DNA from: Rhizobium sp. R711
GTDB taxonomy: Bacteria; Pseudomonadota; Alphaproteobacteria; Rhizobiales; Rhizobiaceae
Direction of reading: 5' to 3'
Assembly (NCBI RefSeq): GCF_002211365.1
Contig: NZ_LOKZ01000001.1
Coordinates: 372,001-436,000, forward strand
Length of the DNA stretch: 64,000 nt
Shown: positions 10,456 through 43,268 of the stretch, one piece after another
Numbering within the stretch: position 1 is the stretch's first letter
Layout of the letters: each line of letters opens with the position of its first letter
Position numbers and translations under genes: made by a program
The notes under the pieces: model-generated
What the model saw: the letters and a program-made list of their open reading frames with translations, nothing else
Database searches by the model: none
Told to the model about the DNA's origin: nothing

Positions 10456-10470
10456 GGCCGACTCCTGTTT

Positions 10471-10487: not shown

Positions 10488-10504
10488 AATAGGGCGCCAT
10501 TGTT

Positions 10505-19906: not shown

Positions 19907-21265
19907 ATGGCGAAACGCAAGGACAAGATCAAGCTCGGCGCATTTCTGCTCTTTACCGGGCACCATGTCGCCGCATGGCGCCATCCGAAGGCTTCTGTCG
20001 GCACCGAGTTCGAGAACTATCTGGAACTCGCCAAGCTCGCCGAAGCGGCGAAGTTCGACACGATCTTCTTCGCCGATGGCGTTGCCGCGCGCATCAAGGA
20101 TGTCGAGGCGGCAAGCCGCAAGGCCCACAGCGGTGTATACCCGTTTGAGCCGATTACCCTCCTCTCGGCGCTGTCATCCGTCACCCGCAATATCGGGCTG
20201 ATCGCCACGGCCTCCACCAGCTACTCCGATCCCTACAATCTCGCCCGCCAATTTGCCTCTCTCGACCGGCTGAGCGGCGGCCGGGCCGGCTGGAATCTGG
20301 TTACGTCGTCGGATCCCGACGCCGCCTTCAATTTCGGCCATGAAACGCAGATCCTTCATTCCGACCGCTATGAACGGGCGGAGGAATTCGCCGATGTCGT
20401 GCTCGGCCTCTGGGACAGCTGGGACGACGATGCCTTTCTTCGGGACCGCGAGAGCGGCCGGTACTTCGATCCGGCCAAGCTGCACCGGCTCAACCACAGC
20501 GGCCGGCACTTCAACGTGCGCGGGCCGCTTAATATTCCACGCTCGCCACAGGGCAGGCCTGTTGTCGTTCAGGCCGGTGCCTCCGAGCCCGGCAAGGAGC
20601 TTGCCGCCCGCACCGCGGAAGCCATCTTCGCCGCCCAGATCACGCTCGGCGAAGCGACCGGCTTCTATGCCGACGTCAAGGGACGGCTTGCCAAATACGG
20701 ACGCTCGCGTGACGACCTGAAGATCCTTCCCGGCATTTTCCCTGTTGTCGCCCGCACGCGATCGGAAGCCGAGGAGAAGTTCGAATCCCTTCAGGAACTC
20801 ATCCAGCCCGAGGTCGGCCTGAACCTGATCTCGCAGCTGTCGGGCGTCGACCTCAGGGATTATCCGCTCGATGGTCCGGTGCCCGAAAATCCGCCCGCGA
20901 CGAATGCCGGCAAGAGCCGGCAGGCGCTGGTTCTGGATCTCGCTCGGCGCGAAAACCTGACGATCCGCCAGCTCTATCTGCGCATTGCCGGCGCGCGCGG
21001 CCATTGGCAGGTCGTCGGCACGCCTGACGATATCGCCGATCAACTCGAGGAGCGCTTCGAGAACTACGGCGCCGACGGCTTCAACATCATGTCGCCGATC
21101 ATGCCGGGCGGGCTTTCCGATTTCATCGAGCTCGTGGTGCCGGAACTGCGCCGGCGCGGTCTCTTCCGCCACGAATATGAAGGCACGACGCTGCGCGAGA
21201 ACCTTGGCCTTAAGCGCCCCGAAAACAGCCTCGCCGCCCGCGGCGGCGCGGTCGCGGCCGAGTGA
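19907..21265 (+). CDS. DszA/NtaA-type flavin-dependent monooxygenase, copy 1
   Basis: This 452-residue protein is close in length to DszA (453), the sulfone monooxygenase of the 4S pathway, and belongs to the NtaA/SnaA/DszA luciferase-like clade. DszA-like blocks are FDTIFFADG, the STSYSDPYNLARQFASLDRL segment, SGGRAGWNLVTSSDPDAA, RYERAEEFADVVLGLWDSWD, RGPLNIPRSPQGRPVVVQAG and LFRHEYEGTTLRENLGL. It needs FMNH2 from a separate reductase. It follows the DszC-like gene by 12 bp, consistent with sequential oxidation. The true substrate is unknown. Confidence 0.9.
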   Translation: MAKRKDKIKLGAFLLFTGHHVAAWRHPKASVGTEFENYLELAKLAEAAKFDTIFFADGVAARIKDVEAASRKAHSGVYPFEPITLLSALSSVTRNIGLIATASTSYSDPYNLARQFASLDRLSGGRAGWNLVTSSDPDAAFNFGHETQILHSDRYERAEEFADVVLGLWDSWDDDAFLRDRESGRYFDPAKLHRLNHSGRHFNVRGPLNIPRSPQGRPVVVQAGASEPGKELAARTAEAIFAAQITLGEATGFYADVKGRLAKYGRSRDDLKILPGIFPVVARTRSEAEEKFESLQELIQPEVGLNLISQLSGVDLRDYPLDGPVPENPPATNAGKSRQALVLDLARRENLTIRQLYLRIAGARGHWQVVGTPDDIADQLEERFENYGADGFNIMSPIMPGGLSDFIELVVPELRRRGLFRHEYEGTTLRENLGLKRPENSLAARGGAVAAE

Positions 21266-21630: not shown

Positions 21631-22851
21631 ATGACCGTAAAGCCCGCAGGCTTCGAACCAGCCGCATTGCCGCCCGTGCTATTCAAGCCGGACCGAACCG
21701 ACCCCTATCTCGCCAAAGCCGTCGAACTTCGCGACATCTTCGCGACCGACGCCGTCGAGCGGGATCAAAGAGGCGGGGGTCCCGCCGAGCAGGTCCGGCT
21801 GCTGAAGGAGAGCGGTCTCGTCAACCTCCTCATTCCCAGGGAGTTCGGTGGCGAGGGACAGCCCTACTCAACGGCACTACGGATCGTGCGCGAATTCGCC
21901 AAGGTCGACGGTTCGCTCGGCCATCTCTTCGGCTATCACTTCAGCCCGATCCAGAATGCCCTGACGAGTGGTAACGACGAACGATCGGCCGCGATCCTGC
22001 GGCAATCGGCCGAGGGCCGGTGGTTCTGGGGCAACACGACGAACAGCTTCTCCAAGAGCCTCTTCGGCAGGAAGGTCGAAGGCGGCGTTCTGTTGAACGG
22101 CTACCGGCCTTTCGCCTCCGGTTCCCACGTCGCCGACTACGTGATGGTCGCCTGGGAGGACGAGGAGACTTACGCGCGCAGCTTCGCCTATATCCCCGCA
22201 AACCGGCCCGGCATCGCGATCGCCCACGACTGGGATGGTATCGGCCAGCGGCAGACCGGCAGCGGCCGCGTCTTCTACAAGGATGTCGCGATCACGGATG
22301 ACGAAGTCCTGTCGGAGCGGCCCAAGGATCCGGCTGCGCTGCTGATACCCCAGCAACAGCAGAGCGTTCTTCTCAATGTCTTCATCGGCAGCGCCCAGGG
22401 CGCGTTTATCGCCGCGCGCGACTACACCATCACGAAATCCCGCCCCTGGATCTATTCGGGCGTCGAGCGCCATGCCGACGATCCGTGGATCAAGCGGCAA
22501 TACGGCGAACTCTGGACCAAGGTGCAAGCTGCCACCGCGCTCGCCGACCGTGCCGCCACCAGTATCGACGCCGCCTATGCCAAGGGCCCGGCGCTGACGG
22601 CCGAGGAGCGCGGCGCCACGGCAATCGCGGTCGCCTCGGCCAATGTGCTGGCCGGCAAGGTTGCGCTCGAGGTCACCAGCGAAATATTCGAAGTCATGGG
22701 AGCCCGCTCCGCAGTGCGCCCCCATGGCTTCGATCGCTTCTGGCGCAACGTCCGTATCCACACGCTTCACAATCCGGCCGAGTACAAGACCCGCAATGTC
22801 GGTTCATGGTTCCTGACCGGCGATTACCCCGAGCCGGGTGTTTTCCAATGA
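21631..22851 (+). CDS. Acyl-CoA dehydrogenase-fold flavin monooxygenase (DszC/SfnC-like), copy 2
   Basis: At 406 residues it is a clear paralogue of the 18716 gene. Shared blocks include AKVDGSLGHLFGYHFSP, FASGSHVADYV, HDWDGIGQRQTGSG, QQSVLLNVFIGSAQG, SRPWIYSGVERHADDPWIKR and FDRFWRNVRIHTLHNPAEYK. The ATG at 21631 follows GGAGGAACG. Its stop overlaps the next DszA-like gene by 4 bp. Tandem duplication of a C-A gene pair is the simplest explanation for this arrangement. Confidence 0.87.
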   Translation: MTVKPAGFEPAALPPVLFKPDRTDPYLAKAVELRDIFATDAVERDQRGGGPAEQVRLLKESGLVNLLIPREFGGEGQPYSTALRIVREFAKVDGSLGHLFGYHFSPIQNALTSGNDERSAAILRQSAEGRWFWGNTTNSFSKSLFGRKVEGGVLLNGYRPFASGSHVADYVMVAWEDEETYARSFAYIPANRPGIAIAHDWDGIGQRQTGSGRVFYKDVAITDDEVLSERPKDPAALLIPQQQQSVLLNVFIGSAQGAFIAARDYTITKSRPWIYSGVERHADDPWIKRQYGELWTKVQAATALADRAATSIDAAYAKGPALTAEERGATAIAVASANVLAGKVALEVTSEIFEVMGARSAVRPHGFDRFWRNVRIHTLHNPAEYKTRNVGSWFLTGDYPEPGVFQ

Positions 22852-24173
22852 GCTGGCGACAGCTTCATCTCAACATCAACATCCTGCATTCCGGCTTTTC
22901 CCCCGCCGCCTGGCGAATGGAAGGCAGCGATCCTCGCGCCTTCTTCGACATCAACCACTACATCAAGGTGGCGAAGATCGCCGAACGCGGCACCTTCGAC
23001 GCCGTCTTCCTTGCCGATCAGGCGGCCATATCGGACCGCATCGACTTCCGGCCGCTGACTTCGCTGGAGCCGACCATCGTTCTGGCCTTGGTCGCGGCCA
23101 ACACCGACCGCATAGGGCTGATCGGCACGGCCTCCACCACCTACAACGAGCCCTACAATATCGCGCGGCGCTTCGCGACGCTCGATCATGCCAGCGGCGG
23201 GCGCGCGGGCTGGAACATCGTCACCAGCGCGGACCTGGCACAAAGCAGAAACTTCGGCCTCGAAAAGCCCGTAGCGCATGCAAGCCGCTATGAACGCGCC
23301 GGCGAGTTCGCCGCCGTCGTCAAGGCGCTCTGGGACAGCTGGGAGGAAGAGGCTTTCGTCGGCGATGTCGCGACGGGCCGCTTCGTCGATCCCGGCCGCG
23401 TTCACGCAATCGCCCACAGTGGCAAGCACTTTACGGTGCATGGGCCGCACAATATTCCGCGCCCTCCGCAGGGACACCCTGTTGTCGTGCAGGCAGGCGG
23501 GTCGGACGACGGACGCGAGCTCGCCGCCGAGCATGCCGAAGCCGTCTTCTCAGCTTCGCAATCCTTCGAGGAATCCCTGGATTACGCCAGGGACCTGCGC
23601 CGTCGCGCGGCCCGTTATGGGCGGCGGGAAAATAGCATCCTCGTTCTCGCGGGCCTCGCCACCATCATCGGCAGCACCGAGGCGGAGGCCAGACAGAGGC
23701 AGGAAGAACTGCGAGACCTGATCCCGCTGGAATACAGCCTCGCCCGGCTTGCGGGTGTCCTGCAGGTCGATCCTAATCGGCTCGAGCTCGACAAGCCGCT
23801 CCTTGACGACATCCCGCTGCCGGCCGACGGCGGGCATACGTTCTTCCGCGCGACGCTAGCGCTGGCGCGGCACCAGGGTTTGACCGTTCGCGGCCTGATG
23901 CGGGCGCTCGATGGCGGAACCGGGCATCGCACGATCGTCGGTACGCCTGCCGCCATTGCCGATGACATCGAGACCTGGTTCAGCGCCGGCGCGGCCGATG
24001 GTTTCAATCTCATGCCGGACGTGCTGCCGCATGGCCTTGAGGTCTTCGTCGACGAAGTGGTTCCGATCCTGCGTCGGCGCGGCCTCTTCCGGCGCGAATA
24101 CACCGGCCACACACTGCGCGACCACCTCGGCCTGTCGCGGCCCCACAACCCCTACGCCAGCGCGGCGGAATGA
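22848..24173 (+). CDS. DszA/NtaA-type flavin-dependent monooxygenase, copy 2
   Basis: This 441-residue luciferase-like monooxygenase of the DszA/NtaA clade is paralogous to the 19907 gene. Key stretches are ILHSGFSPAAWRMEGSDPRA, FDAVFLADQAA, SGGRAGWNIVTSADLAQSRN, RYERAGEFAAVVKALWDSWEE, HGPHNIPRPPQGHPVVVQAG and LFRREYTGHTLRDHLGLSRP. The ATG is embedded in the stop of the preceding DszC-like gene. The substrate may differ from copy 1, since identity outside the core is modest. Confidence 0.9.
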   Translation: MSWRQLHLNINILHSGFSPAAWRMEGSDPRAFFDINHYIKVAKIAERGTFDAVFLADQAAISDRIDFRPLTSLEPTIVLALVAANTDRIGLIGTASTTYNEPYNIARRFATLDHASGGRAGWNIVTSADLAQSRNFGLEKPVAHASRYERAGEFAAVVKALWDSWEEEAFVGDVATGRFVDPGRVHAIAHSGKHFTVHGPHNIPRPPQGHPVVVQAGGSDDGRELAAEHAEAVFSASQSFEESLDYARDLRRRAARYGRRENSILVLAGLATIIGSTEAEARQRQEELRDLIPLEYSLARLAGVLQVDPNRLELDKPLLDDIPLPADGGHTFFRATLALARHQGLTVRGLMRALDGGTGHRTIVGTPAAIADDIETWFSAGAADGFNLMPDVLPHGLEVFVDEVVPILRRRGLFRREYTGHTLRDHLGLSRPHNPYASAAE

Positions 24174-24194: not shown

Positions 24195-25042
24195 GTGACG
24201 CCATCCCTTGCTGCAAAGGCAACCGATAATGATCGGCTGGCGGCCCTCGCCGCCCAGCGCTATCGCCAGGCGCAGCACCTCGGCAGCGAATGGAACGAGA
24301 CGATTGATACGCTGCTTTCTCACTGCAGCGTGCGCAGCTATCTGCCAGATCCGATTCCGCACGCCGCTGTCGAACTCGCGGTTGCCGCCGCGCAGTCGGC
24401 CGCCAGCTCGTCCAATCTGCAGGCATGGAGCGTCGTTGCCGTTGAAGACACCGAACGTCGAAACAGGCTGAACGCCATTGCCGGCAGCCAGCGCCAGATC
24501 GCGCAGGCCCCTCTCCTGCTCGTGTGGCTCGCGGACCTTGCCCGGCCCCGTGCGATCGCTGCGGAAGGCGGCTCCTCGGGAGACGGCCTCGACTATATCG
24601 AGAGCTTTCTGCTTGGCGTGATCGACGCGGCGCTCGCTGCGCAGAACGCGGTCGTTGCCTTTGAATCGCTCGGGCTCGGAACCTGCTACATCGGTGCGAT
24701 CCGCAACGATCCGGAGACCGTTGCACGGGAACTCGCCTTGCCGAAAGGCGTCTTCCCGGTTTTCGGCCTGACGGTCGGCGTTCCCGACCCGGCGCAGCCC
24801 ACCGACGTGAAGCCGCGCTACCGCAGTCGACGGTTCTGCACCGCGAGCAATATGCGGATGACGCACGCACACGCGATCTTGCCGGCTACAACAGGGCGCT
24901 GAGAAGCTTCCAGGCGCAACAAGCGATGCCGGCGATTGACTGGACGGATCAGGTGCGCAATCGCATCGGCACAGTCGAGGCGCTGAAGGGTCGGCATGTG
25001 CTGGCCGCGGCGGCGCGCAAACTAGGTTTCCCGCTCAAATAG
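24195..25042 (+). pseudogene. Nitroreductase-family flavoprotein with a C-terminal frameshift
   Basis: The first 235 codons encode a nitroreductase-family protein: HCSVRSYLPDPIP, AQSAASSSNLQAWSVVAVED and VAFESLGLGTCYIGAIRNDP. At about 24820 one base appears to be missing. The next frame then continues coherently with PQSTVLHREQYADDARTRDL, AGYNRALRSFQAQQ and a stop at 25042, giving about 282 residues, close to NfsA-like relatives. As sequenced the protein would end at 24902 with a foreign tail. It could supply reduced flavin to the monooxygenases. Similar single-base losses recur at 28.8 and 29.7 kb. Confidence 0.75.
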
Positions 25043-28057: not shown

Positions 28058-29472
28058 TCAGGCGACGCGGATTGGCGTGAATTTCGCGAGGATGCGGTCG
28101 GCAAGCGCAATCGCCTGGGCGCGCTGCTCGGTGATCGAGCTTGATTCCCACGCAACGCCGCGCAGCGGATGCCCGATGGCGCTGAGATTGCGATGAACAC
28201 GGCCTTCCTCGTTGATGAGGTCGCCGGCGGGGGTCGCATCGATGCCGTAACCGGTGCTGTGAGGACGAACTTCGCCGCTTGCGAGCAGGCTCTTCACGAA
28301 GGGATCGGATATCCGGCGCCAGTCATGCAGCTGATGCCCCCGGCAATCGATCACGCCGTCGAACGACACCGTCTCGACGTCCGCCCCCGTCTTTAGGCTG
28401 GCGGTGATATCGCCATCCTCGGCGGCAAATCCGAGGATGCGGGCGCGGCCATGCTTCAGCCGACCTTCAGAAATGACGCTCTCGACGATCTGGTGGCTCT
28501 CCGGCGCCGAGCGGTGCGCGGTCACGTCCCAGAAGGCCCTGAGATGCCTGGTGAACCGCAGCCGCTCGCGATCGCTGGCACCCTGCCACAGCGACAGAAT
28601 ATGCGGACGGATCGCCAGCGGCAGGCCCTGCCAGTCCGCACCGCCAGCCGCTATCGCCCGCCGTTCCGCCTTGACGCGTGACAGCAGCTCGCGCGTGGTC
28701 GCCGGCAATGGGCCATCGGCCAGAAAGTCGCGCGCCGCCTCGACGGTCCTGCGCCCTTCCACGAACTGGCCACGACGCGATATGGCGCGGTAGCGCCGCG
28801 ATAGCCCCTCGCCTCCATGCTGGCGATGGCATCGACCATCGACAGGCTGGAACCGATCAGCAGGATTTCGTCGCAATCGACCAGCCGATCGAGCGCGCGC
28901 GTGTCCCACGGATTGGCCGCGAAGCGCGGATGGCCGGCAAGCTGGGATTCGGCTTCCGACAGCCGAGGCTGGAAGGCGCCAAGGGCCAGAATGGCCTCGT
29001 CGGCCTCGACGACAGCACCGTCGGTGATGGTGATCCGGATTCGGCTCGGCGCGGCGACAAGTGCAGATGCCGACGACCGGATATGCCGCAACGTCGAGCC
29101 AAGTCGCGCATTGGCCACCGCACGCGCGAGTTCGTCGCGAACATAGGTTCCGTAGAGATAGCGCGGCGGACTGCTTGAGCCCACCTCGGCGGGCGGCGTC
29201 CAGCCATTGGCGAGGCCGTGCTCGACCAGCCAACGCGAAAGATGGTCCGGGTCTTCGGGATGGAGGGAGAAGATCTCCGCCGGTCCGTTGACGAGATGGA
29301 CCGGCTCCGGCGTGCTGTAGGCAATGCCGCGACCGAGCTCCTCGCGCCGTTCGATGATGGTGATCGCCAGCGGCACCTCGGTGCGATCAAGCAGCTTGAG
29401 CGCGGTCGCCGCGCCGGCAAAGCCGCCCCCGACGATGGCGATGGAGTGATGCGGAATACGATCAATGCGCAA
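28058..29472 (-). pseudogene. FAD/NAD(P)-binding protein (COG4529-like), single frameshift
   Basis: The N-terminal half (from 29472) shows SIAIVGGGFAGAATALKLLD, the IIERREELGRGIAYST motif, GPAEIFSLHPEDP and ILLIGSSLSMVDAIASMEAR. Around 28795 one base is missing. The homologous remainder (SRRGQFVEGRRTVEAARDF, then RFTRHLRAFWDVTAHRSAPE, DGVIDCRGHQLHDW and NLSAIGHPLRGVAWE) continues in the next frame to 28058. Restored, it would be about 471 residues, like the FAD/NAD(P)-binding proteins found beside sulfonate or siderophore genes. Role unknown. Confidence 0.75.
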
Positions 29473-29507: not shown

Positions 29508-30499
29508 CTATGCCTGACGTGGAACGGGCGGACGCCGCTTATCAATCAGCCGGTTGCGGGCGTGGCGATGACCTTTCAGCAGTTCAAGGGCATTGCGGCT
29601 GGCAATCAGCTCTGCCTCATGCTCGCTCAATCCGGCCGCCTTAAAGGCTGCTGCCAGTCCGTCCTGTGTCGGATCGTGTCCGAGGATCGGCCAGTCACTG
29701 CCGGTCAGAACATGATCGGCGCCAGGAGGCCGGTCACGAAGCGGATGAAGCGCGCCTCGGATGGCATGATGTCGATGTAGAGATGGCGCCGCTTGCCGGC
29801 CGGCGCATCGGTGAAAATGGACGGCAGTTCGCCGAAGGGACCGGTCAGCGCAAGCGCCGAAACCCCGAGAGCGGTAATGACGACCCGAAGCTCCGGCAGC
29901 TCCTCGAAAACGCCTGATGTCACCAGCGAGATCGCGGCGGCGGCGTTGATCGTGCCGCGGCTCAGGCGGGTGCCAAGCCTGCCGAGGCCTGATAGCTGCG
30001 TCGCAAGCGGCTCGGGATTGATCGGATGCAGGAAGACGGGAACGCCGAGCTCCGCGGCGACCCGCAGCACAGGCCGCGCTTCCGGCGCTTCGATCAGCCT
30101 GTCGCCCTTTGCGCTGTCGAGAAACAGACCGGACAGGTTGAGTTCGATGATGGCGCGCCGCGCCTCGGCCGCGGCTGCCTCACCGCCGAATGCATCCACG
30201 GTCGCCAAGGCGAAGAGGCGATCCGGACGGCGCGCAACCGTCGCCGCGAGATCGTCATTCAGCCGCCGGGTCACGGAGCCGAGATCCGCATCGGGCCCAG
30301 CGACCATGGAATGGGCAACGCCAATGACTCGCAGCGCGATACCAGCCGCATCACTATCGGCGATCAGCGCATCGAGATCGGAGATCTTCGTGCCGATCCG
30401 TGCCCATAGCGGATCGAGCGGGCGACCGGGCGCGTGGTACACTTCCCAGCCCTTCGGCAGGAAATGTGTATGGAAATCGACGATATCGAGCCTGCTCAT
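29508..30499 (-). pseudogene. Amidohydrolase-2 family enzyme, single frameshift near C-terminus
   Basis: The first 260 residues form an amidohydrolase_2/ACMSD-like metal hydrolase. The N-terminal metal motif DFHTHFLP is visible, then a VPVFLHPINPEPL histidine strand and MPSEARFIRF. Near 29722 one G appears lost. The next frame then gives GADHVLTGSDWPILGHDPTQ, containing the conserved GSDWP motif with the metal Asp, and ends at 29508. Without the shift the annotated product would lack that Asp. It lies between the acyl-CoA-dehydrogenase-like gene and the flavoprotein gene on one minus-strand operon. Confidence 0.76.
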
Positions 30500-31854: not shown

Positions 31855-32913
31855 TCAGGCGACGGCGCGCGTCAGCGGCACGACATTGTCGGCGCCAGCT
31901 GCCGCGCTGCGCGGCACGCGGCCTTCGACCGGATGGCTCGGATCGTTGAAGCCGGGGGTCGACGGGTGGCCGGTTGTGACCAGCCGGTCGACCAGCGCCT
32001 CGTCCTCGGCGTCGAGCTTGACGTCGAGCGCGCGGATATAGCTGTCCCAATGCTCTTCCGTGCGTGGTCCGGTGATCGCCGCCGAGATCAGCTTGTTGTT
32101 CAGCACCCAGGCGAGCGCGAACTCGGTCGGCGAAATCCCCTTGCGGGCGGCGTGCGAGGCGATCTCGCTGGCGATCGCAATCGATTCCGGACGCCATTCG
32201 GTCTCTAGGATACGCTTGTCGCCGCGACCGGCGCGGGTATCGGCGGCGGGTTCCTTGCCCGGCTCATACTTGCCGGTCAGCACGCCACGTGCGAGCGGCG
32301 AGTAGGAAACGACACCGAGACCGTAGTGGTGGGCGGCCGGCAGCTGCTCCGCCTCCGCAGTGCGGTTGACGATGTTGTAGAGCGGCTGGCTCGCCACCGG
32401 GCGGTCGATCCCGAGTTCATCGGCAAGCTGTGCGATCTCGGCAATGCGCCAGCCGCGGAAATTGGAGACGCCGAAATAGCGCAGCTTGCCGGCGCGGATC
32501 AGGTCGGCGATCGCGCGCACCGGCTCTTCCAGCGGTGCATCGAAGACGGCCCGGTGAAAATAGAGAATGTCGATATACTCAGTGTTGAGGCGACGCAGCG
32601 AATTCTCCACGGTCTCGATCACCCACTTGCGCGAATGACCGCCGAGGTTCGGACCCTTCTTGTGCGAGTTGACGAACTTCGTCGCCAGCACCCAGTGATC
32701 GCGATGCGCCTTGATGCCCTTGCCGACAACCTCTTCCGACTTGCCGTCGTGATAGACATCGGCCGTATCGATGAAATTGATCCCCTGCTCGCGCGCCTTG
32801 TCGATGATGCGGAACGCGACGTCGTCAGGCGTCGGCCCACCGAACATCATGGTTCCCAGGCTGAGCGGTGACACCTTGAGCGCGCTGCGCCCGAGATAGC
32901 GATAATCGACCAT
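31855..32913 (-). CDS. Aldo/keto reductase
   Basis: This 352-residue NADPH-dependent oxidoreductase has the AKR tetrad in sequence: Asp of DTADVY, Tyr four residues on, Lys of ATKF and His of YFHRA. Further motifs are GTMMFGG near the N-terminus, RYFGVSNFRGW and the NADP-binding ISAAITGPRTEEHWDSYI. It belongs to the YajO/potassium-channel-beta-like group. The ATG at 32913 is the family start; a longer frame would overlap the upstream ATPase gene. It sits 14 bp after the transporter ATPase and probably reduces an aldehyde or ketone released during degradation. Confidence 0.92.
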   Translation of the reverse strand: MVDYRYLGRSALKVSPLSLGTMMFGGPTPDDVAFRIIDKAREQGINFIDTADVYHDGKSEEVVGKGIKAHRDHWVLATKFVNSHKKGPNLGGHSRKWVIETVENSLRRLNTEYIDILYFHRAVFDAPLEEPVRAIADLIRAGKLRYFGVSNFRGWRIAEIAQLADELGIDRPVASQPLYNIVNRTAEAEQLPAAHHYGLGVVSYSPLARGVLTGKYEPGKEPAADTRAGRGDKRILETEWRPESIAIASEIASHAARKGISPTEFALAWVLNNKLISAAITGPRTEEHWDSYIRALDVKLDAEDEALVDRLVTTGHPSTPGFNDPSHPVEGRVPRSAAAGADNVVPLTRAVA

Positions 32914-32927
32914 TGTATTCTTCCTTC

Positions 32928-33843
32928 TTACTGAGCGTGATGGCAGGCGGCGGCATGGCCGTTGCCGAACTGGCGGAACGCCGGGTCTTCGGCCCGGCAG
33001 ATATCGGTGGCGAGCGGACAGCGCGTATGGAAACGGCAGCTGGACGGCGGATTGTGCGGGCTCGGCAGATCGCCTGTGATCGGCACCGCCTGCTTGCGCC
33101 GCGACGGATCCGGCACGGCTGCAAGCAGCGCCTGCGTGTAGGGATGCTTGGCGCCCTTCCAGAGCTCGCTCGTCGGCGCGCTCTCGACGATGCGGCCGAG
33201 ATACATGACGAGCACCCGGTCGGCGAAATAGCGCACGACGGAGAGGTCGTGCGAAATGAAGAGATAGGATAGCGACAGCTCCGTCTTCATCTCGACCAGC
33301 AGGTTGAGGATCTGCGCCTGGATAGACAGGTCGAGCGCCGAGACGGGCTCGTCGCAGATGACCAGTTCCGGCTGCAGGATCAGTGCACGGGCGATGCCGA
33401 TGCGCTGGCGTTGGCCGCCGGAGAACTCGTGCGGGTAGCGATCGAGCGAATCCGCCGGGAGGCCGACATGGGCCACCATCTGAGCCGCGATCGCCTCGCG
33501 CTGCTTGCGCTCGCCGATGCCATGGACCGCGAGAGGTGCCGTCAGGATGGTGCGGATCGTCTGCCTCGGATTGAGCGAGGCGAAGGGATCCTGGAAGATC
33601 ATCTGGATGCTGCGCCGGACCGATTTCAGTTCGCGCCCCGCCATGGCGGTAACGTCCCTGCCCTTGAAGGTCACGTTCCCCGACGACGGATCGACAAGCC
33701 GCACCAGCGATTTGCCGAGCGTGGACTTGCCACAACCGGATTCACCGACCAGCGCCACGGTCTCGCCTTCGGCGATCTCAAGCGACACGCCATCGACGGC
33801 GCGCACCGTGCCTGCAGCTCCGGCGTAATGGGTCGAGAGCCGG

Positions 33844-33863
<20 letters not shown>
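32928..33863 (-). CDS. Peptide/nickel-type ABC transporter ATPase (DppF type)
   Basis: The 311-residue OppF/DppF-class ATPase shows Walker [11 protein letters not shown], signature FSGGQRQRIGIARAL, Walker B LVICDEPVSALDLS and the C-terminal oligopeptide-transporter extension (CRFHTRCPLATDICR). The start at 33863 gives the usual N-terminus and overlaps the DppD-type gene by 20 bp. It powers the permease pair encoded upstream. With three binding proteins available in the window, the complex may serve several ligands. Confidence 0.93.
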
Positions 33864-34835
<972 letters not shown>

Positions 34836-34836
<1 letters not shown>

Positions 34837-35840
34837 CAGCGATCCTCCGAAAAGCGCGGGTTCAGCGCGTCGTTCAGGCCATCGCCAATCAGGTTGAGCG
34901 AGAGCACGCTGAAGACGATCGCCAGACCCGGCAGCGCCGTCAGGTACCAGGCGGTGCGGATGACATCGCGGCCAGCGCCGATCATCGAGCCCCAGGAGAC
35001 GCGGTTGGGATCGCCCAGGCCCATGAAGGAGAGTGCCGATTCCATCAGGATCGCGCTTGCCACCATCACCGACGAGGTGACGATCAGCGGCGGCAGCGCA
35101 TTGGGAAGGATCTCGCGGAAGATGATGCGTGTGTGGCCGAAGCCGAGGCTGCGGGCGGCCTGCACATAGTCCTTCTCACGGATCGCCCGGAATTCGGCAC
35201 GCGTCAGCCGCGCCACCGTCGGCCAGGAGACGATCGCGATGGCAATGGTCACGGTTGCCGTCGTCGGCTGGGCGATCGCCACGAGGACGACGAGCAGCAC
35301 GAAGCTCGGAATGGTCTGGAATATCTCGATGAACTTGACGAGGATATCGTCGATCAGGCCGCCGAAATATCCGGCCACGGCGCCGATCGCGATCCCCGCC
35401 GTCAGCCCGAGCGCGGTGGCCGCCAGCCCAACCGTCAGCGAGATCCGCGCGCCATGCACGATGCCGGCCAGCACGTTACGTCCCATGGAATCCGTGCCGA
35501 GCGGATAGGCAGGGTTCTGGCCGGGCCAGAGGAAGGGTCGCGCCACCATCTCGAGCGGATCGCCCGGGAAGAGAAGTGGTGCGAATAGCGCAGACAGCGC
35601 GACCAGAAGCAGGATCGCCGTGCCGAACAATGCGTTGTAATTGGCGAGGAAGACCTTCAGCTCCCGGCGCACGCCGCGCCATGCCGTCCCCGAAACCGAG
35701 GCGCGCACATCGGGCGCGTGAATATGTGTCCAGCGCGGCTGCTTTGGCGCTTCCGGGGCTGGCTGGGCGGTCTCTGCCTTTGCCTGCGGCGCGAAGTCGA
35801 TCGCCCGGCCGGCCAGTGTTCCAAGTTTCTGACTGTTCAT
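34836..35840 (-). CDS. Peptide/nickel-type ABC transporter permease (DppC type)
   Basis: This 334-residue inner-membrane permease has a long N-terminal cytoplasmic region (rich in Ala/Pro), about six membrane spans and an EAA-type loop. The loop runs through EKDYVQAARSLGFGHTRIIF. The GTDSMGRNVLAGIVHGARIS stretch is a family-5 permease hallmark. It overlaps its partner permease gene by 4 bp. Confidence 0.92.
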
Positions 35841-36826
35841 CGGCTTGCTCCAATTCGGGGATCGATCCAGGCCTGCAGCAGGTCGACGGCCGCGTTGGCG
35901 ACGATCACGAGGAAGGATGAAAGCAAAAGGATGCCGAGCAGCACGCTGAAATCGCGCGCCATGACGGCTTCGAAGGCAAGGCGCCCGAGGCCCGGCCAGC
36001 TATAGACGGTCTCGACCACGACCGCGCCGCCGAGCATCCCGCCGAAGTGCATGCCGGCCATGGTGGTGATCGGGATGAGAGCATTGCGAAGCACGTGCCG
36101 GGTGGTCAGCACGAAGGGCGAGACACCCTTGGCGCGTGCGGTGCGCACGAAATCCTGCGACTTCACCTCCAGCATCGAGGCGCGCGTCAGCCGGGCATAG
36201 ATCGCGAGATAAAAGAGCGCGAGCGAGGTTGCCGGCAGCACCATGTAACGCGCTCTGTCGAGCAACGCCGGGACACCCGTCAGCCGTGAGCCGATCGTGC
36301 TGTCGCCGCCACTCGGCAGCCAGCCAAGCTTGACCGAGAAGAGCAGGATCAGCATCAGGCCGATCCAGAAGCCGGGGATCGAATAGAAAAGCAGCGAAAT
36401 CACCGAGATGATGCGATCCGGCAGGCGTCCGGAGAAGGTCGCCATCAGCGAGCCGAGAAGCAACCCGACCGCAATTGCAATGGTCAATGCCGCAAGCATG
36501 AGCAGAAGCGTACCCGGGAGGCGCTGGCCGATCAGATCGGCGACGGACATGCCATAGCGCGGCGAAAAGCCGAGACTGAAATGCGCGAGGTTATTGAGGT
36601 AATTGGCGAGCTGCACCAGGATCGGATTATCGAGCCCGAAACGCTCGCGCAGCGCCGCCATGGTCTCGACCGTAGCCGAACCCGATTCCGCCGCCATAAC
36701 GTCGGCGGCATCGCCGGGTGCCAGTTTCAACAGGAAGAAATTGAGGATGACGATCCCAAGCATTGTAGGCACGGCCTGAATGATCGTCCTGATGATCGTT
36801 CGACCGATCCGCCTGTAAGCCGACAT
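35837..36826 (-). CDS. Peptide/nickel-type ABC transporter permease (DppB type)
   Basis: The 329-residue permease begins with the typical short N-terminal membrane span and LKLAPGDAADVM, then RFGLDNPILVQLANYLNNLA. The EAA region (KSQDFVRTARAKGVSPFVLT) and GGAVVVETVYSWPGLGRLA are diagnostic of DppB/OppB. It is the first gene of the eight-gene minus-strand operon running to 28058, divergent from the third binding-protein gene. Confidence 0.93.
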   Translation of the reverse strand: MSAYRRIGRTIIRTIIQAVPTMLGIVILNFFLLKLAPGDAADVMAAESGSATVETMAALRERFGLDNPILVQLANYLNNLAHFSLGFSPRYGMSVADLIGQRLPGTLLLMLAALTIAIAVGLLLGSLMATFSGRLPDRIISVISLLFYSIPGFWIGLMLILLFSVKLGWLPSGGDSTIGSRLTGVPALLDRARYMVLPATSLALFYLAIYARLTRASMLEVKSQDFVRTARAKGVSPFVLTTRHVLRNALIPITTMAGMHFGGMLGGAVVVETVYSWPGLGRLAFEAVMARDFSVLLGILLLSSFLVIVANAAVDLLQAWIDPRIGASR

Positions 36827-37100
36827 GTCCCCTACCTCGCGATCCGAAAAGATTTCACCTCGTTCCGTCGCTTAGTAGTTGACTAATTCTGTGGGTTTTG
36901 TCAAATCCATATTGGTAAATAATTCCAACCACATCGCTTCCTAGCGACCTTTTAGAAACATGATACCGCATATCGCGACTTGTTAGAAGTTCATGCCCCT
37001 TCATAGCGATGAAGGGGCAAAAATCTCTAAGGCAGGATCGATCGGCGGAATGGCACTGAAGCGGGCCGCGACGGCCCCTGGATCATGAGGGTTGAACAAG
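36827..37100. promoter_or_regulatory. Divergent promoter region with 11-bp hairpin
   Basis: The region should contain promoters for both the permease operon and binding-protein gene. TGCCCCTTCAT (36994-37004) and ATGAAGGGGCA (37009-37019) form a perfect stem with an AGCG loop, followed by AAAAA on the plus strand, so it is not a standard terminator for either gene. It would lie in the 5' leader of the binding-protein mRNA. A weak TTGTCA/TAATTC-like promoter is visible around 36898-36925. Confidence 0.5.
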
Positions 37101-38708
37101 ATGTCACTATTTCCCGCACCCACGCGCCGCAGCTTTCTCCTGGCCTCGGTCGCGCTCGGCGTCACCGCAACGGCAGGGCTTCCGGCCTTTGCAGCAACCG
37201 CAACACGCGGCGGCACGGCAACGCTTCTGCTTGCGGCCGAGCCGCCAGTCCTGACGACGATCGCCCACACCGCGTATAACGCGGTCTACGTCTCGCCGAA
37301 GACGACGGAAGGGCTGCTCACCTACGACTTCGAACTCAATCCGAAGCCGCTGCTGGCCAAGGAATGGACCGTCAGCCCCGATGGCCTCACCTATACCTTC
37401 AAGCTGCGGGACGGCGTGAAATGGCATGACGGACAGGCCTTCACGTCCGCCGACGTCGCCTTCTCGATCAAGACCCTGAAGGAAGTGCACCCGCGCGGCC
37501 GCAACACCTTCCTCAATCTCGTCGACGTCGAAACCCCCGACGCGCAGACGGCCATCCTGAAGCTCTCCAAGCCGGCGCCCTATCTGATCACCGCGCTTGC
37601 CGCCTCCGAAACGCCAATCGTGCCGCGTCATATCTATGAGGGCACCAAGGTCGCGGAGAACCCGGCCAATCTGGCGCCGATCGGAACCGGCCCCTTCAAA
37701 TTCAAGGAGTGGGTGCGTGGCAGCCATATCGTCTACGAGCGCAACCCCGATTATTGGGACCAGCCCCGCCCCTATCTCGACCAGCTGATCATCCGCTTCA
37801 TCCCGGATGCCGCCGCTCGCTCAATCGCGATCGAGACCGGCGAAATCGATCTCGCGCCCTCGACGCCTGTGCCGCTCAGCGACCTCGAACGGCTGCAGAG
37901 CGCCGAAGGGCTCGCTTTCGAAACCAAGGGCTATCAATACCAGAACGGCGTCAGCCGCATCGAGTTCAACCTCGAGCGCCCCTTCTTCAAGGATGTGCGG
38001 GTGCGCCGCGCCTTTGCCCATGTGATCGACCGCAACGTCATCCTCAATACCATCAATTACGGCTACGGCGCCGCGATCCCCGGACCGATCAATCCCAATC
38101 TTGCCAAATGGTACGTGCCGGATCTCAAGACCTATCCGATCGATCTTGCCGCCGCCGGGAAGCTTCTCGACGAGGCGGGCTACACGCGCGGTGCCGATGG
38201 CATCCGCGCGCGCATCAATCTCGACTACGTGCCGAGCGGCGAGACCTATCCGCGCGGCTCCGAGTATATCCGCCAGGCACTCGCCAAGGTCGGCATCGAC
38301 GCCACCGTTCGCAGCCAGGATTTCGCGACCTATACGAAGCGCATCTACACCGACCGCGACTTCGACTTCGCCTTCGAGGGCATGAGCAACCTCTTCGATC
38401 CGACAGTTGGCGTGCAGCGCCTCTACTGGAGCAAGAACTTCAAGCCCGGCGTCCCCTTCTCGAACGGGGCTGCCTACAGCAACCCCAAGGTCGACGAACT
38501 GCTCGAGGCAGCCGCCATCGAGGTCGATCCGGCGAAGCGTGTCGAGCAGTGGCGCCAGATCCAGCAAATCCTCGTCGAGGACGTTCCGGCGATCGACATC
38601 GTCAGCCAGCCGGAACTAACGATCTACAACCAGCGGATCTCCGACCACACGATCGGCGGCGAAGGCATCGCGGGCAGCCTCGCCTTTGCCTACGTCGCAG
38701 CGTCCTGA
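37101..38708 (+). CDS. Family-5 ABC solute-binding protein, copy 3 (Tat-type signal)
   Basis: This 535-residue binding protein carries the signal APTRRSFLLASVALGVTATA followed by GLPAFAATA. Core motifs are KLRDGVKWHDGQAFTSADVA, LSKPAPYLITALAASETPIV, IGTGPFKFKEWVRG and VYERNPDYWDQPRPYLDQLI. The ATG at 37101 is preferred over a TTG nine bases upstream because GAGG is better spaced to it. It is the third member of a paralogous trio, first gene of a plus-strand run with SfnG-like, DszB-like, DszC-like and SsuD-like genes. Confidence 0.91.
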   Translation: MSLFPAPTRRSFLLASVALGVTATAGLPAFAATATRGGTATLLLAAEPPVLTTIAHTAYNAVYVSPKTTEGLLTYDFELNPKPLLAKEWTVSPDGLTYTFKLRDGVKWHDGQAFTSADVAFSIKTLKEVHPRGRNTFLNLVDVETPDAQTAILKLSKPAPYLITALAASETPIVPRHIYEGTKVAENPANLAPIGTGPFKFKEWVRGSHIVYERNPDYWDQPRPYLDQLIIRFIPDAAARSIAIETGEIDLAPSTPVPLSDLERLQSAEGLAFETKGYQYQNGVSRIEFNLERPFFKDVRVRRAFAHVIDRNVILNTINYGYGAAIPGPINPNLAKWYVPDLKTYPIDLAAAGKLLDEAGYTRGADGIRARINLDYVPSGETYPRGSEYIRQALAKVGIDATVRSQDFATYTKRIYTDRDFDFAFEGMSNLFDPTVGVQRLYWSKNFKPGVPFSNGAAYSNPKVDELLEAAAIEVDPAKRVEQWRQIQQILVEDVPAIDIVSQPELTIYNQRISDHTIGGEGIAGSLAFAYVAAS

Positions 38709-38731: not shown

Positions 38732-39910
38732 ATGTCCATTCAACATCGTCCCGGCTCGATCGTCGGCCTGCCGAAATTCGCCGCCCCGACCGATTTCCCG
38801 GAAAGCCCGCTGTCCCAGGCGCTGAAACAGCCCGTGCTTCTCGGCCTCTTCCTGCCGATCCAGGCCGGCGGCTGGACGCAATCGACGCTGGAGCGATCGA
38901 CCGACTGGCGTTTCGACTACAACAAGGCCCTGACAATGAAGGCCGAGGAACTCGGCTTCGATCTCGTCTTCGCCCTGTCGCAATGGCTGCCCAAGGGCGG
39001 CTATGGCGGCGTCTTCGACGGGCAGGCGCTCGACAGCTTCGTCTCGACGGCGGCGCTGGCCGGCCTCACAAAGAAGATCATGCTGATCTCGACCATGCAT
39101 GTGCTTTATGGCCCATGGCATCCGCTGCATCTGGCGAAGTTCGGCGCAACGCTCGACCATATCACCGGCGGGCGCTGGGGCATCAACGTGGTCACCGGCC
39201 ACCGGGCGGTCGAACACGAGATGTTCGGCTGGCCGCGCATCGAGCACGACAAGCGGTATGAACTGGCGGCCGAATTCCTCGAGGTCGTCCAGCGCCTGTG
39301 GAGCGACAGCGAGAACTTCTCATTCGAAGGTGAAAGCAGCTGGAAGCTCGGTGGCGGCTTCGTCACGCCGAAGCCCAATTTCGGCCGCCCGATCCTCGTC
39401 AACGCCACCGGTTCGGATGCCGGCATCGCCTTTGCCGGCCGTTACTCCGATATCGTCTTCATCACCAGCCCGACGGGCGCCGACATCGACAGCGCGCTGG
39501 AATCGCTTCCGGCGCATGCGAAGCGCGTCAAGGACGCGGCCATCGGCGTCGGCCGCACCGTGCGTACGCTGCTGAACCCGATGGTGATCTGCCGGCCGAC
39601 GGAGAAGGAGGCCTGGGAGCTTGCCAACCGCATTGTCGCCCATGCCGACCAGCGTTCGCCGCAGGGATTCCAGTCGCTGAACTCGGATGCTCAAGCCTGG
39701 AAGGGCCGTGATCCGCAGGATCCTTACCGTGCCATCGGCGGCAATATTCGCGTCATCGGTTCGCCCGAGCAGGTCGTCGATCAGTTCGTCAAGTTGAGGG
39801 AGGCCGGCGTCGATGGCCTGCAGCTCAGCTTCTTCGACTTCCGCGACGATCTTGAATTCTTCGGCTCGGACGTCCTGCCGCTGATGAAGCAAGCCGGCCT
39901 GCGCCACTAG
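38732..39910 (+). CDS. SfnG-like luciferase-family flavin monooxygenase
   Basis: This 392-residue LLM-class monooxygenase resembles SfnG, the FMNH2-dependent dimethylsulfone monooxygenase. It has STDWRFDYNKALTMKAEELG (compare the DWGLDYN motif of SfnG), GPWHPLHLAKFGATLDHITG, INVVTGHRAVEH, IEHDKRYELAAEFLEV and the C-terminal DFRDDLEFFGSDVLPLM. Position between a binding protein and a DszB-like desulfinase suggests oxidation of a sulfone or sulfonate. Other LLM functions cannot be excluded. Confidence 0.82.
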   Translation: MSIQHRPGSIVGLPKFAAPTDFPESPLSQALKQPVLLGLFLPIQAGGWTQSTLERSTDWRFDYNKALTMKAEELGFDLVFALSQWLPKGGYGGVFDGQALDSFVSTAALAGLTKKIMLISTMHVLYGPWHPLHLAKFGATLDHITGGRWGINVVTGHRAVEHEMFGWPRIEHDKRYELAAEFLEVVQRLWSDSENFSFEGESSWKLGGGFVTPKPNFGRPILVNATGSDAGIAFAGRYSDIVFITSPTGADIDSALESLPAHAKRVKDAAIGVGRTVRTLLNPMVICRPTEKEAWELANRIVAHADQRSPQGFQSLNSDAQAWKGRDPQDPYRAIGGNIRVIGSPEQVVDQFVKLREAGVDGLQLSFFDFRDDLEFFGSDVLPLMKQAGLRH

Positions 39911-39919: not shown

Positions 39920-40957
39920 ATGACAAGCAATGACATTTCCGAAATCTGGTACACGCGCTGCCCGGTGCCGACGCCCGTCGGGCTTGCCGCGCAGCTCGGC
40001 TACCTCGAGGAAAACTTCCGCAAGGAGGGCGTGACGCTGAAGTCGATCATCGACTCCCCCGATCGCAACATTCGTCAGAGCCATTTCAACCACACGCTCG
40101 ACTGGTCGTTCCGCCATGGCGGCAACGTGCCGCCAATCCGTGCCCGCTCCGAAGGCCGCAAGACGCGGCTGGTCGGCATCACCTGGACCGACGAATTCCA
40201 GGCGATCATCACCCTGCCGGAAACCGCCATCAAGACCACGAAGGACCTGAAGGGGCGCCGCTTCGGCATCGCCCGCCGCCCCGAGGGCATCGTCGACTTC
40301 ATGCGCGCCACGGCTCTCAAGGGGCTCGTTTCCGCCCTCTCGCTCGAAGGCCTGGCGCTCGACGACGTCGAGATCGTCGACATCGCGCTTTCGGATTCCG
40401 TGCTGTCGACACAGGAAGGTCCGTCCCTCTTCGGCCTGAAGCGCCGACAGGCCTATGGCGAGGAAGTCGCCGCGCTTATTCGCGGCGACGTCGACGCCAT
40501 CTACGTGAAAGGCACGGCGGGGATCAATGTCGCCAACCTGATTGGTGCCGTTGAAGTGGCCGAGTTCGGCTTCCACCCCGATCCGAAGATCCGCATCAAT
40601 TCCGGCTCGCCTCGCGTGCTGACGGTGGACGAGCTGCTGGCCGACGAGCGGCCGGATCTCGTCGCGCGCCTGCTGGACTCGATCTTCAAGGCAAGTGCCT
40701 GGGCCGAGGCCCATCCTGAAGAAACGAGGCGTTTCGTCGCGCGCGAGGCGGGTGCCACCGAAGAGCAGGTTCTCGCCGCCAATGGTCCTGACATCCACAA
40801 GCACCTCGGCCTTGGCCTGCAGCCAGAGCTGGTGGACGCAATCGGCCACTACAAGGACTTCCTGCGCGACTTCGGCTTCCTCGCCGCCGACTTTGACATC
40901 GCGCACTGGGTCGACCGCCGTCATATCGACGCTTTCGACCAGCGCGCCGTGGCCTGA
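39920..40957 (+). CDS. DszB-like sulfinate desulfinase
   Basis: This 345-residue protein shares DszB (2'-hydroxybiphenyl-2-sulfinate desulfinase) landmarks. YTRCPVPTPVGLAAQLGYL contains Cys14 at the position of the DszB nucleophile Cys27 in NCPVP. A His lies in SHFNHTLDW, like DszB His60 in VHFTYD. FRHGGNVPP and GRKTRLVGIT correspond to RFGGEIPP and GRTRLLGIT of DszB, supplying the catalytic Arg. The fold is that of an SsuA-type binding protein, but there is no signal peptide, as expected for a cytosolic enzyme. It would release sulfite from an organosulfinate. An SsuA-like sensor role is the alternative. Confidence 0.8.
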   Translation: MTSNDISEIWYTRCPVPTPVGLAAQLGYLEENFRKEGVTLKSIIDSPDRNIRQSHFNHTLDWSFRHGGNVPPIRARSEGRKTRLVGITWTDEFQAIITLPETAIKTTKDLKGRRFGIARRPEGIVDFMRATALKGLVSALSLEGLALDDVEIVDIALSDSVLSTQEGPSLFGLKRRQAYGEEVAALIRGDVDAIYVKGTAGINVANLIGAVEVAEFGFHPDPKIRINSGSPRVLTVDELLADERPDLVARLLDSIFKASAWAEAHPEETRRFVAREAGATEEQVLAANGPDIHKHLGLGLQPELVDAIGHYKDFLRDFGFLAADFDIAHWVDRRHIDAFDQRAVA

Positions 40958-40976: not shown

Positions 40977-42131
40977 ATGCTTCAGGAAAAGATCGATCCG
41001 GTCGACAAAGCGCGGCGGCTCGCCGTGGATTTCGCCGAACGCGCCGCCCACTATGACGCAACAGGAGACTTCCCATTCGAGAATTTCACGCGTCTCTTCG
41101 ATGCCGGGCTGCTTGGGCTGGTAACGGCGCCTGAACATGGCGGCCATGGTGGCGGTCTTGCCGAGGCACAAGCCGTGATCAGCGAGATCGCGCGCGGCGA
41201 ACCCTCGACCGCGCTTGTGCTCGCCATGCACTACAACAGCCACTACAGCCTGCGCCGCTTCGCCAGGTGGCCCGCCCATCTCGCCGAGCGCGTGCTGACG
41301 GCCAACCGGCTCGGCCCTGCCTTGATCAACGCCGCCCAGGCCGAGCCGCGCATCGGCTCCCCCGCGCACGGCGCACTGCCCGAGACCATCGCGCGCCGCG
41401 ACGGCGACACCTGGCGCATCAGCGGTCACAAGAGCTACGTGACCGGCATACCCGTGCTCAAGTGGGTGTCACTGCTGGCACTGACGGATGAAGCAGAACC
41501 CCGCTTGGCTTCCTTCCTCGTTCCCACCGACAGCCCCGGCTTGCGCATCGAAAAGGCATGGAACGCCGCCGGCATGCATGCGACGGCGAGCGACGATGTC
41601 ATCCTCGACGACGTCGTCATCCCGCTCGAAGACATCATCGAAGCCCAACTCGCCTCCGAGCCCCTTCGTCGCGAAGAACATGCAACGGCCTTCTTCTTCT
41701 CGCTGATCGGAGCGGTCTACCATGGCGTGGCGCTTGCCGCCCGTGACCGCGTCCTCGCCTTCGCCGCCCACCACACGCCGGCAAGCCTCGGCGCGCCGCT
41801 ATCGACCGTTCCCCGCATTCAGGATGGCCTCGGAGAAATCGAAGTCCGGCTTGCGACCAACGCCCGACTGCTGCGCTCGCTCGGCGAAGACGTCGATGCC
41901 GGCAGGGTCGTGGGAATGGATGGCATGCATGTCCGCCATGTCGTCATCGACAATGCCGTCGCGATCACCAGCCTCGCCCTCGACCTCGCCGGAAATCCCG
42001 GCCTCAGCCGTGATTTTCAACTCGAGCGCCATCATCGCGACGCGATAACCGCGCGTTCGCATGCACCCCAGAGCCATATGATCAGATCGATTGCCGCGCG
42101 CAATGCGCTCAGCCGCGTTGCATCCCACTAG
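40977..42131 (+). CDS. Acyl-CoA dehydrogenase-fold flavoprotein (SfnB/DszC-like), copy 4
   Basis: The 384-residue protein starts at an ATG 19 bp after the DszB-like gene, preceded by GGGAGA. Superfamily motifs are FDAGLLGLVTAPEHGGHGGG, ISEIARGEPSTALVLAMHYN, WRISGHKSYVTGIPVLKWVS and WNAAGMHATASDDVILDDV. The last lacks the DGIGQRQTGSG form of copies 1 and 2, so its chemistry may be dehydrogenation or desulfurisation-linked oxygenation. Confidence 0.8.
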   Translation: MLQEKIDPVDKARRLAVDFAERAAHYDATGDFPFENFTRLFDAGLLGLVTAPEHGGHGGGLAEAQAVISEIARGEPSTALVLAMHYNSHYSLRRFARWPAHLAERVLTANRLGPALINAAQAEPRIGSPAHGALPETIARRDGDTWRISGHKSYVTGIPVLKWVSLLALTDEAEPRLASFLVPTDSPGLRIEKAWNAAGMHATASDDVILDDVVIPLEDIIEAQLASEPLRREEHATAFFFSLIGAVYHGVALAARDRVLAFAAHHTPASLGAPLSTVPRIQDGLGEIEVRLATNARLLRSLGEDVDAGRVVGMDGMHVRHVVIDNAVAITSLALDLAGNPGLSRDFQLERHHRDAITARSHAPQSHMIRSIAARNALSRVASH

Positions 42132-42197: not shown

Positions 42198-43268
42198 ATG
42201 AGCAAAAACAGTGAGTTTCTCTGGTACATACCCAATGACATCAGAGCGGGCCACCGCGGCGATTCAGTGGCTGAAAACCACAACAGCCTGGCGACTTTGA
42301 CGGAACATGCCAAGGCACTTGAAGAGCATGGTTGGAAAGGCGCGCTCATCGGAACGGGATGGGGAAGGCCCGACACGTTCACTGTTGCTGCCGCGCTCGC
42401 GGCATGCACGACGAGCTTCGAGCCGCTGATCGCAATTCGCCCGGGCTACTGGCGACCAGCGAACGTTGCCTCGGCCGTCGCTACCCTCGATCACCTGACG
42501 GGCGGGCGCGTGCGCGTCAACATCGTGTCCGGTCTCGACAACCTTGCCGCCTATGGCGATGAGGAGGGAGATCAAGCGCAGCGTTACGCCCGCACCAAAG
42601 AATTCATGCGGCTGGTTCGCAGGCTCTGGACCGAAGAAAATGTCAGCTACCGTGGTGAGCATTTTCGTGTCAGCGAGTCTACGGTCGTGCCACGCATTGA
42701 GAGCCGCGGCGATCGGCGTCACCCGAAGCTTTATTTCGGCGGCGCCTCGCAAGCCGCGGAGAGAGTGGCGGCGACCGAGGCCGATGTTCAACTTTTCTGG
42801 GGCGAGACATTGGATGGGGTTCGCGAGCGGATCGAACGCCTGAAGGTGCTAAGCCGGGATCTGGACCGCGATCTCCCGCCCCTGGAGTTCGGCCTGCGGA
42901 TCACGACGCTGGTGCGCGACACCACGGAGCAGGCCTGGGCCGATGCCGAGGCAAAGGTTGCGCAAATGGCAAAGGGCGGCGGCGCTGGGTGGAGCGATCA
43001 CCGCAGAGCCGTCGCGGTCGGACAACAGCGCCTGCTCGATCTGCACCGAGCCGGCGATGTCCTTGACGACAACCTCTATACCGCACCCGGCAAATTCGGC
43101 GGCGGCGGCGCCGGCACGACCTGGCTGGTCGGCTCGGCCGCGGACGTTGCCCGCTCCCTGCGCAAATACCAGGATCTGGGCATCACGCACTTCGTGCTCT
43201 CCGACACGCCTTACCTCACTGAGATCAAGCGTCAGGGCAACCAGCTGCTGCCTCACCTGGTCAATTGA
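42198..43268 (+). CDS. SsuD-type alkanesulfonate monooxygenase-like protein
   Basis: This 356-residue LLM monooxygenase shares the SsuD block structure: GTGWGRPDTFTVAAALAACT, IRPGYWRPANVASAVATLDH, LTGGRVRVNIVSGLDNLAAY, RYARTKEFMRLVRRLW and the C-terminal VGSAADVARSLRKYQDLGIT with FVLSDTPYL. SsuD uses FMNH2 and O2 to split alkanesulfonates into aldehyde and sulfite. It has no SsuE reductase beside it, so a flavin reductase elsewhere, or the frameshifted nitroreductase, would be required. Last gene of the organosulfur block. Confidence 0.87.
   Translation: MSKNSEFLWYIPNDIRAGHRGDSVAENHNSLATLTEHAKALEEHGWKGALIGTGWGRPDTFTVAAALAACTTSFEPLIAIRPGYWRPANVASAVATLDHLTGGRVRVNIVSGLDNLAAYGDEEGDQAQRYARTKEFMRLVRRLWTEENVSYRGEHFRVSESTVVPRIESRGDRRHPKLYFGGASQAAERVAATEADVQLFWGETLDGVRERIERLKVLSRDLDRDLPPLEFGLRITTLVRDTTEQAWADAEAKVAQMAKGGGAGWSDHRRAVAVGQQRLLDLHRAGDVLDDNLYTAPGKFGGGGAGTTWLVGSAADVARSLRKYQDLGITHFVLSDTPYLTEIKRQGNQLLPHLVN

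Follow-up and report, generated by a model that had tools for sequence, protein, structure and literature searches.

In fuel desulfurization, the final carbon-sulfur bond is cleaved by DszB, and biodesulfurization is described as being limited by the slow turnover of this enzyme (PMC12168087). According to PMC6100217, the enzyme works without a cofactor, its C27S variant is inactive, H60Q causes an approximately 17-fold loss, and R70 variants are insoluble. The same source counts Ser25 and Gly73 as further parts of the active site, relates that the Y63F variant is more active than the wild type, and describes a loop (residues 187-204) that turns helical when substrate binds. It also presents a density-functional study in which the favored step is transfer of a proton from the Cys27 thiol to the aromatic carbon, with His60 steadying the thiolate. 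Because an RxGG motif had earlier been noted there among DszB homologs, relatives of this enzyme were already known to exist. In the open-access literature, we recognized no functional study of a rhizobial clade of the DszB family.

The window analyzed here is a stretch of 64,000 nucleotides from Rhizobium sp. R711 (contig NZ_LOKZ01000001.1), and all coordinates below refer to it unless a locus is named. Positions 39920..40957 of the forward strand hold an open frame, with an ATG at 39920 and a TGA at 40957, that encodes a DszB-family protein of 345 amino acids (hereafter B). The preliminary description of this gene had claimed that it carries a DszB-type catalytic triad in the proper order and context, and pairwise alignment bears this out: Cys14 (within CPVP), His55, and Arg65 lie opposite DszB Cys27, His60, and Arg70. 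His55 is the first histidine of the segment SHFNHT, and Arg65, which immediately precedes HGG, opens the RxGG motif (Arg65-x-Gly67-Gly68). Elsewhere, DszB Gly73 is kept as Gly68, Ser25 becomes Thr12, and Tyr63 is replaced by His58, the second histidine of SHFNHT. Tyr63 is present in both DszB rows compared and is perhaps a defining residue of EC 3.13.1.3. DszB Gln65 corresponds to Leu60 in B, but this position does not separate the groups because it is occupied by His in mycobacterial DszB and by Gln in two distant rows of the family.

These residues are highly conserved. An alignment of DszB with 99 relatives (100 rows; 25 of 124 open reading frames, those from loci L085-L109, had been excluded as mostly re-finds and SsuA-like proteins) retains Cys14, His55, and His58 in 99 rows each and Arg65 in all 100. 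A wider set of 33 family rows has the cysteine in 30, the histidine in 32, and both the arginine and Gly68 in every row.

B is approximately 26% identical to DszB. A phmmer search of solved chains ranks DszB (2de2) best, with an E value of 6.4e-13 over B residues 9-326 and the next chain at 0.04, and a 41-row profile finds DszB at 4.2e-27 and only one other protein up to an E value of 0.01, namely SsuA (0.003). The preliminary description had suggested modeling B against DszB, and the predicted model (pLDDT 87.4, pTM 0.86) indeed has DszB as its closest fold. Foldseek places DszB first (8.4e-20; first SsuA, 1.3e-14), and VIA-align gives a Z score of 32.1 for substrate-bound DszB (2de3; rmsd 3.1 over 315 residues), 30.0 for 2de2, and 25.7 for SsuA (3uif). 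Since SsuA trails DszB only moderately, the shared fold is no proof of function. The single long low-confidence inner segment of the model, residues 164-175, lies opposite the DszB 187-204 loop in the pairwise alignment, and a helix at residues 49-57 is approximately opposite a second such DszB loop, 55-62. A large distance between the triad residues in a model would not be decisive, because Cys27 and His60 of DszB are 17 Å apart when no substrate is bound (PMC6100217).

A maximum-likelihood tree built from 47 rows has one branch (98/99) that divides the 33 family rows, two DszB rows included, from 14 binding proteins, several of whose branches are long and were flagged by the tool. Two genomes with SsuA-like, C-terminal-only matches (G557 and G583) were left out of this tree. 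The two DszB rows are sister to the remaining 31 family rows, which form a separate branch as the preliminary description had expected, with a long branch (1.53 changes per column) leading to DszB. On these sequence comparisons, the membership of B in the DszB-containing family, taken in a wide sense, is well supported. B is neither DszB itself nor the DszB of a dsz operon, because its identity to DszB is low, Tyr63 is changed, and its adjacent partners are different.

Homologs of DszB outside actinobacterial dsz operons had been thought scarce in the preliminary description, a view that does not survive a survey of genomes and plasmids. At E values up to 1e-10, B was found in 19 of 60 genomes of the genus, its own included, and 5 further genomes (24 matching in all) gave weak SsuA-like matches only. 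A scan of genome contigs yielded 105 encoding stretches, of which 80 were kept (69-97% identical), from Rhizobium, Agrobacterium, Mesorhizobium, Ensifer/Sinorhizobium, Devosia, Chelatococcus, Sphingobium, Acetobacter, and other genera. When 72,556 plasmid records were searched with DszB, 81 matched, one at more than 60% identity; rhizobial genera account for 73 of these matches. With B as the query, 106 of the same 72,556 records matched, the weakest being SsuA-type. Among the best 50 of these 106, the named rows all read "ABC transporter substrate-binding protein"; the other names on matches to the DszB query include "hypothetical protein" and "monooxygenase". B was absent from 40 of 40 genomes of other families in the order (E up to 1e-10), and it occurred in 4 of 385 genomes of a class-wide sample, its own included. 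In a phylum-wide sample, 8 of 299 genomes matched, again counting its own, and two of the eight (G557 and G583) are SsuA-like. The full residue set is also carried by more distant members in Burkholderia, Paraburkholderia, Paracoccus, and Streptomyces.

B belongs to a forward-strand run of genes that were assigned by homology. The run consists of a family-5 (Opp-type) solute-binding protein gene (37092..38708), an SfnG-like FMN monooxygenase gene of the LLM class directly 5′ of B (A, 38732..39910), B itself, a gene for a protein with an acyl-CoA dehydrogenase fold (C, 40977..42131), and an SsuD-like FMN monooxygenase gene (D, 42198..43268). The best match of A is the dimethylsulfone monooxygenase SfnG and that of D is SsuD, both below the NCBIfam cut-offs. 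Divergent from this run, on the reverse strand, lies an Opp-type importer with two ATPases and two permeases (32928..36826), named by homology after genes of Rhizobium sp. T136. Its reading frames are 32928-34214 (with an internal true start), 33844-34836, 34836-35840, and 35837-36826. Also on the reverse strand is an aldo/keto reductase gene, assigned by homology (31855..32913).

To describe the neighborhood of B more widely, we used 80 loci of at most 8 kb per side, some ended by contig edges. Many are near relatives and so are not independent, and the following counts are raw, without a chance baseline for rhizobial oxygenase genes. A C homolog lies directly 3′ of B in 71 of the 80 loci and an A homolog directly 5′ in 41, with the order A-B-C in 36; among the nine loci that differ on the C side, the contig stops at that point in L030. 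Homologs of the Opp permease (>60% identity) occur in 78 loci, of the aldo/keto reductase in 77, of the LLM class in 75, and of the acyl-CoA dehydrogenase type in 75, the last two being found together in 70. The order LLM-B-acyl-CoA dehydrogenase type is that of dszABC, but we do not take it as proof because the adjacent partners are not orthologous. The possibility that the adjacent genes are dszABC orthologs was rejected, since A resembles SfnG most and C shares only 23% identity with DszC.

Judged by homology and fold, the product of C is probably a flavin monooxygenase. Its nearest solved chains are 5gj7/5z8t (3.6e-51; next chain, 7e-24), and its best fold match is 5z8t, titled a flavin-containing monooxygenase (Z 43.0), followed by acyl-CoA dehydrogenases (39.6) and TdsC (37.6). 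Because ordinary acyl-CoA dehydrogenases come this close, C cannot be called a monooxygenase by its fold alone. In acyl-CoA dehydrogenases, the glutamate of the YEG segment is the catalytic base, and another glutamate position is known in isovaleryl-CoA dehydrogenase. C reads HAP where the solved acyl-CoA dehydrogenases read YEG in printed alignments, and with this replacement, at the one position compared, the acyl-CoA dehydrogenase reading of C was dropped. A CoA-dependent 3-sulfinopropionyl-CoA desulfinase was likewise rejected, as C matches that family below its cut-off (95.2 versus 600 bits). Two histidine columns of DszC are kept in the C group (25 and 26 of 26 rows, among them DszC and the proteins C0 and C1 described below), one of which would hold His391, the named catalytic residue of DszC (PMC11134501). 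Our search of the literature on 5GJ7/5Z8T found nothing of use.

B lies in an island of approximately 27 kb that carries DszC-, DszA-, SfnB-, SfnG-, and SsuD-like genes together with the Opp-type importer. C0 (21631..22851, forward strand) encodes an MsuC/DszC-like monooxygenase that is 40% identical to mycobacterial DszC and has MsuC (1e-83) and DszC (6e-80) as its nearest solved relatives. A0 (22848..24173, forward strand) encodes an NtaA/DmoA-family monooxygenase that is 41% identical to mycobacterial DszA, with YtnJ/MoxC (3e-97) and DszA (6e-85) nearest. Next to these is a gene of the nitroreductase family, a candidate supplier of reduced flavin (24195..24902, forward strand). A second DszC-like and DszA-like pair, 38% and 40% identical to the mycobacterial proteins, is located at 18716-19894 and 19907-21265 of the same strand. 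C1 (30533..31774, reverse strand) is an SfnB-like flavin oxidoreductase that scores 294 bits against a curated cut-off of 430.9. The island further encodes a regulator of the LysR type and another two family-5 binding proteins. DszC-, DszA-, and DszB-like proteins are therefore found within approximately 25 kb, none clearly orthologous to its dsz counterpart. By sequence, the island has proteins that resemble every 4S enzyme class, and the likeness is one of kind rather than clear orthology.

Some further features of the island deserve mention. Its three family-5 binding proteins (16767-18563, 26373-27989, and 37092-38708; pairwise identity 46% and 55% for two of the pairs) are grouped around an Opp-type importer, as if several ligands were taken. 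On the reverse strand, a FAD/NAD(P)-binding gene (28061-29472) is split between two frames relative to Rhizobium sp. T136, which indicates either a pseudogene or a sequencing error, and an amidohydrolase gene (29544-30499) is broken near 29723 relative to the same strain.

Several genomes have more than one member of the family. In loci such as L061, L062, L071, and L072, C is followed immediately by another gene of the DszB family (approximately 10280-11310 of these loci; 52-59% identity to B), and the hosts are Devosia, Ensifer/Sinorhizobium, Neorhizobium, and Chelatococcus. Acetobacter senegalensis carries a third type, 33% identical, beside a C1-like gene (L082:722-1672, reverse strand). 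In three natural members (L125, L127, and L061:11-865 on the reverse strand), serine replaces the catalytic cysteine, the same change as in the inactive C27S variant of DszB. Two of these, L125 and L127, stand in tandem with copies that have the cysteine (L121 and L119) in two genomes, and a further tandem is L120/L126.

We consider it fairly probable that B acts in the cytoplasm as a sulfinate desulfinase of the DszB family, needs no cofactor, and helps the cell to acquire sulfur. This prediction draws on homology, residue conservation, the predicted fold, the lack of a signal-peptide-like start, and recurrent neighbors of the monooxygenase type. Because its predicted fold, its active-site residues, and the kind of its neighbors resemble those of DszB systems, B probably helps to take sulfur from organic compounds. 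We infer the import, order of steps, turnover, and substrate as follows. The Opp-type importer would bring an organosulfur compound into the cell, where the flavin monooxygenases of the island would turn it by oxidation into a sulfone and break one carbon-sulfur bond to give a sulfinate. B would bind this sulfinate through Arg65 and the RxGG loop, and His55 would close in together with a mobile lid (approximately residues 163-177). The Cys14 thiol would then protonate the sulfur-bearing carbon, which would release sulfite for assimilation. By analogy with DszB, such a mechanism would fit an aryl or alkenyl sulfinate, and an alkyl substrate would need another route. The substrate is probably not derived from dibenzothiophene.

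It seems rather doubtful that B applies DszB-like machinery to some other reaction, be it a decarboxylation-type protonation of carbon or the turnover of a sulfonate or a cyclic sulfur substrate. The presence of His58 in place of Tyr63 and the long branch to DszB are consistent with such a change, and proteins of the same fold do carry out other chemistry, since Thi5 (Z 17.7) and 4,5-dihydroxyphthalate decarboxylase (Z 14.7) appear among the lower fold matches of the model. However, the entire Cys/His/Arg/Gly-Gly set is retained in B, and its neighbors are akin to monooxygenases of sulfur compounds. We think it quite improbable that B belongs with the SsuA/NMT1 binding proteins, as its name in plasmid records and the rank of SsuA as its second-best fold match would have it. 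B passes the Pfam family NMT1/THI5-like (PF09084; 3.3e-11, 44 bits against a cut-off of 20.5), although this family is broad and unites binding proteins with enzymes of the same fold, Thi5 among them, but fails the SsuA family TIGR01728 (82.9 bits against a curated cut-off of 163.5). An SsuABC-type importer is encoded near B in two distant relatives (L135 and L147), yet SsuA-type genes of its own are present there, and the importer adjoining B in two annotated close relatives is Opp-type and likewise has its own binding protein. The Cys-His-Arg set occurs in none of 14 binding-protein controls (eight of NMT1 type from the genome of B and six others), one of which, L141, has a lone cysteine at the first column. 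A crude N-terminal hydropathy scan gives B, at 0.95, no signal-peptide-like N-terminus, with 12 of the 14 controls at 1.81-2.62 and the 33 family rows at or below 1.80; the dividing value was chosen post hoc, start codons were guessed for some rows, and the gap at the edge is nil, the top family value of 1.80 being that of mycobacterial DszB and lying inside the core of that protein. One of the two low controls, L142, was probably assigned too late a start. With the score below the SsuA cut-off, the residue set, the tree, and the hydropathy relative to the 14 controls all pointing away from it, the binding-protein reading was set aside.

Far less plausible still is a true 4S pathway that desulfurizes dibenzothiophene or benzothiophene. 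All of its parts have counterparts in the cluster, namely the two DszC-like (40% and 38%) and two DszA-like (41% and 40%) proteins, the DszB-like protein (26%), and the nitroreductase, but the nearest solved relatives of C0 and A0 are MsuC and YtnJ/MoxC, and the Opp-type importer would suggest polar substrates. As described in PMC3868597 and PMC6630823, Sinorhizobium KT55 takes sulfur from benzothiophene and can also draw it from dimethyl sulfone. On pSymA of S. meliloti 1021, two copies of B flank a C homolog. The link between the KT55 phenotype and B-type genes of Sinorhizobium is a lead rather than proof. A 4S desulfurization of dibenzothiophene has also been reported for Chelatococcus, with a DszB peptide printed in that report (PMC4839641). 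This peptide is identical to that of Rhodococcus DszB and therefore points to a classical dszB rather than to the clade of B, so this report was discarded as a lead; a different Chelatococcus genome does have a B-C-B′ set.

Returning to B as a predicted sulfinate desulfinase, we tentatively propose, with somewhat less than even confidence, that it represents a widespread and misannotated cofactor-free desulfinase clade of soil- and plant-associated proteobacteria. Members of this clade might perform a 4S-like scavenging of natural (plant or soil) sulfones and thioethers rather than thiophenes, and some lineages might maintain tandem Cys and Cys-to-Ser copies, the latter perhaps as binding partners or decoys. 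A large and diverse set of natural DszB relatives, filed as transporter proteins, would be a broad source of variants. The clade also offers a way to ask what desulfinase chemistry evolved for, and it supplies a gene candidate for benzothiophene desulfurization by Sinorhizobium.

Among known systems, SsuA (3uif, 2x26) shares with B the overall binding-protein fold but is exported, lies on the opposite side of the tree split, and lacks the cysteine, histidine, and arginine in the rows compared. Thi5, the pyrimidine synthase of the NMT1/THI5 family, is like B a binding-protein fold made into an enzyme, but it has different residues and acts in a different pathway. The bdsABC operon of Gordonia terrae C-6 is described as combining a desulfinase, an FMNH2 monooxygenase, and an alkanesulfonate-type monooxygenase with low similarity to dsz (PMC3868597); it resembles the cluster of B by this description, and unlike that cluster it is actinobacterial. 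DszB (2de2, 2de3) resembles B in its fold, as predicted for B, in the Cys-His-Arg set and RxGG, in a hydroxyl residue at position 25 (12 in B), in a flexible segment at the lid position, in having no signal-peptide-like start, and in its adjoining genes of the flavin-monooxygenase type. B departs from DszB in its identity of approximately 26%, its long branch, His58 in place of Tyr63, an adjoining Opp-type importer, and partners that are SfnG-like and 5z8t-like instead of DszA and DszC.
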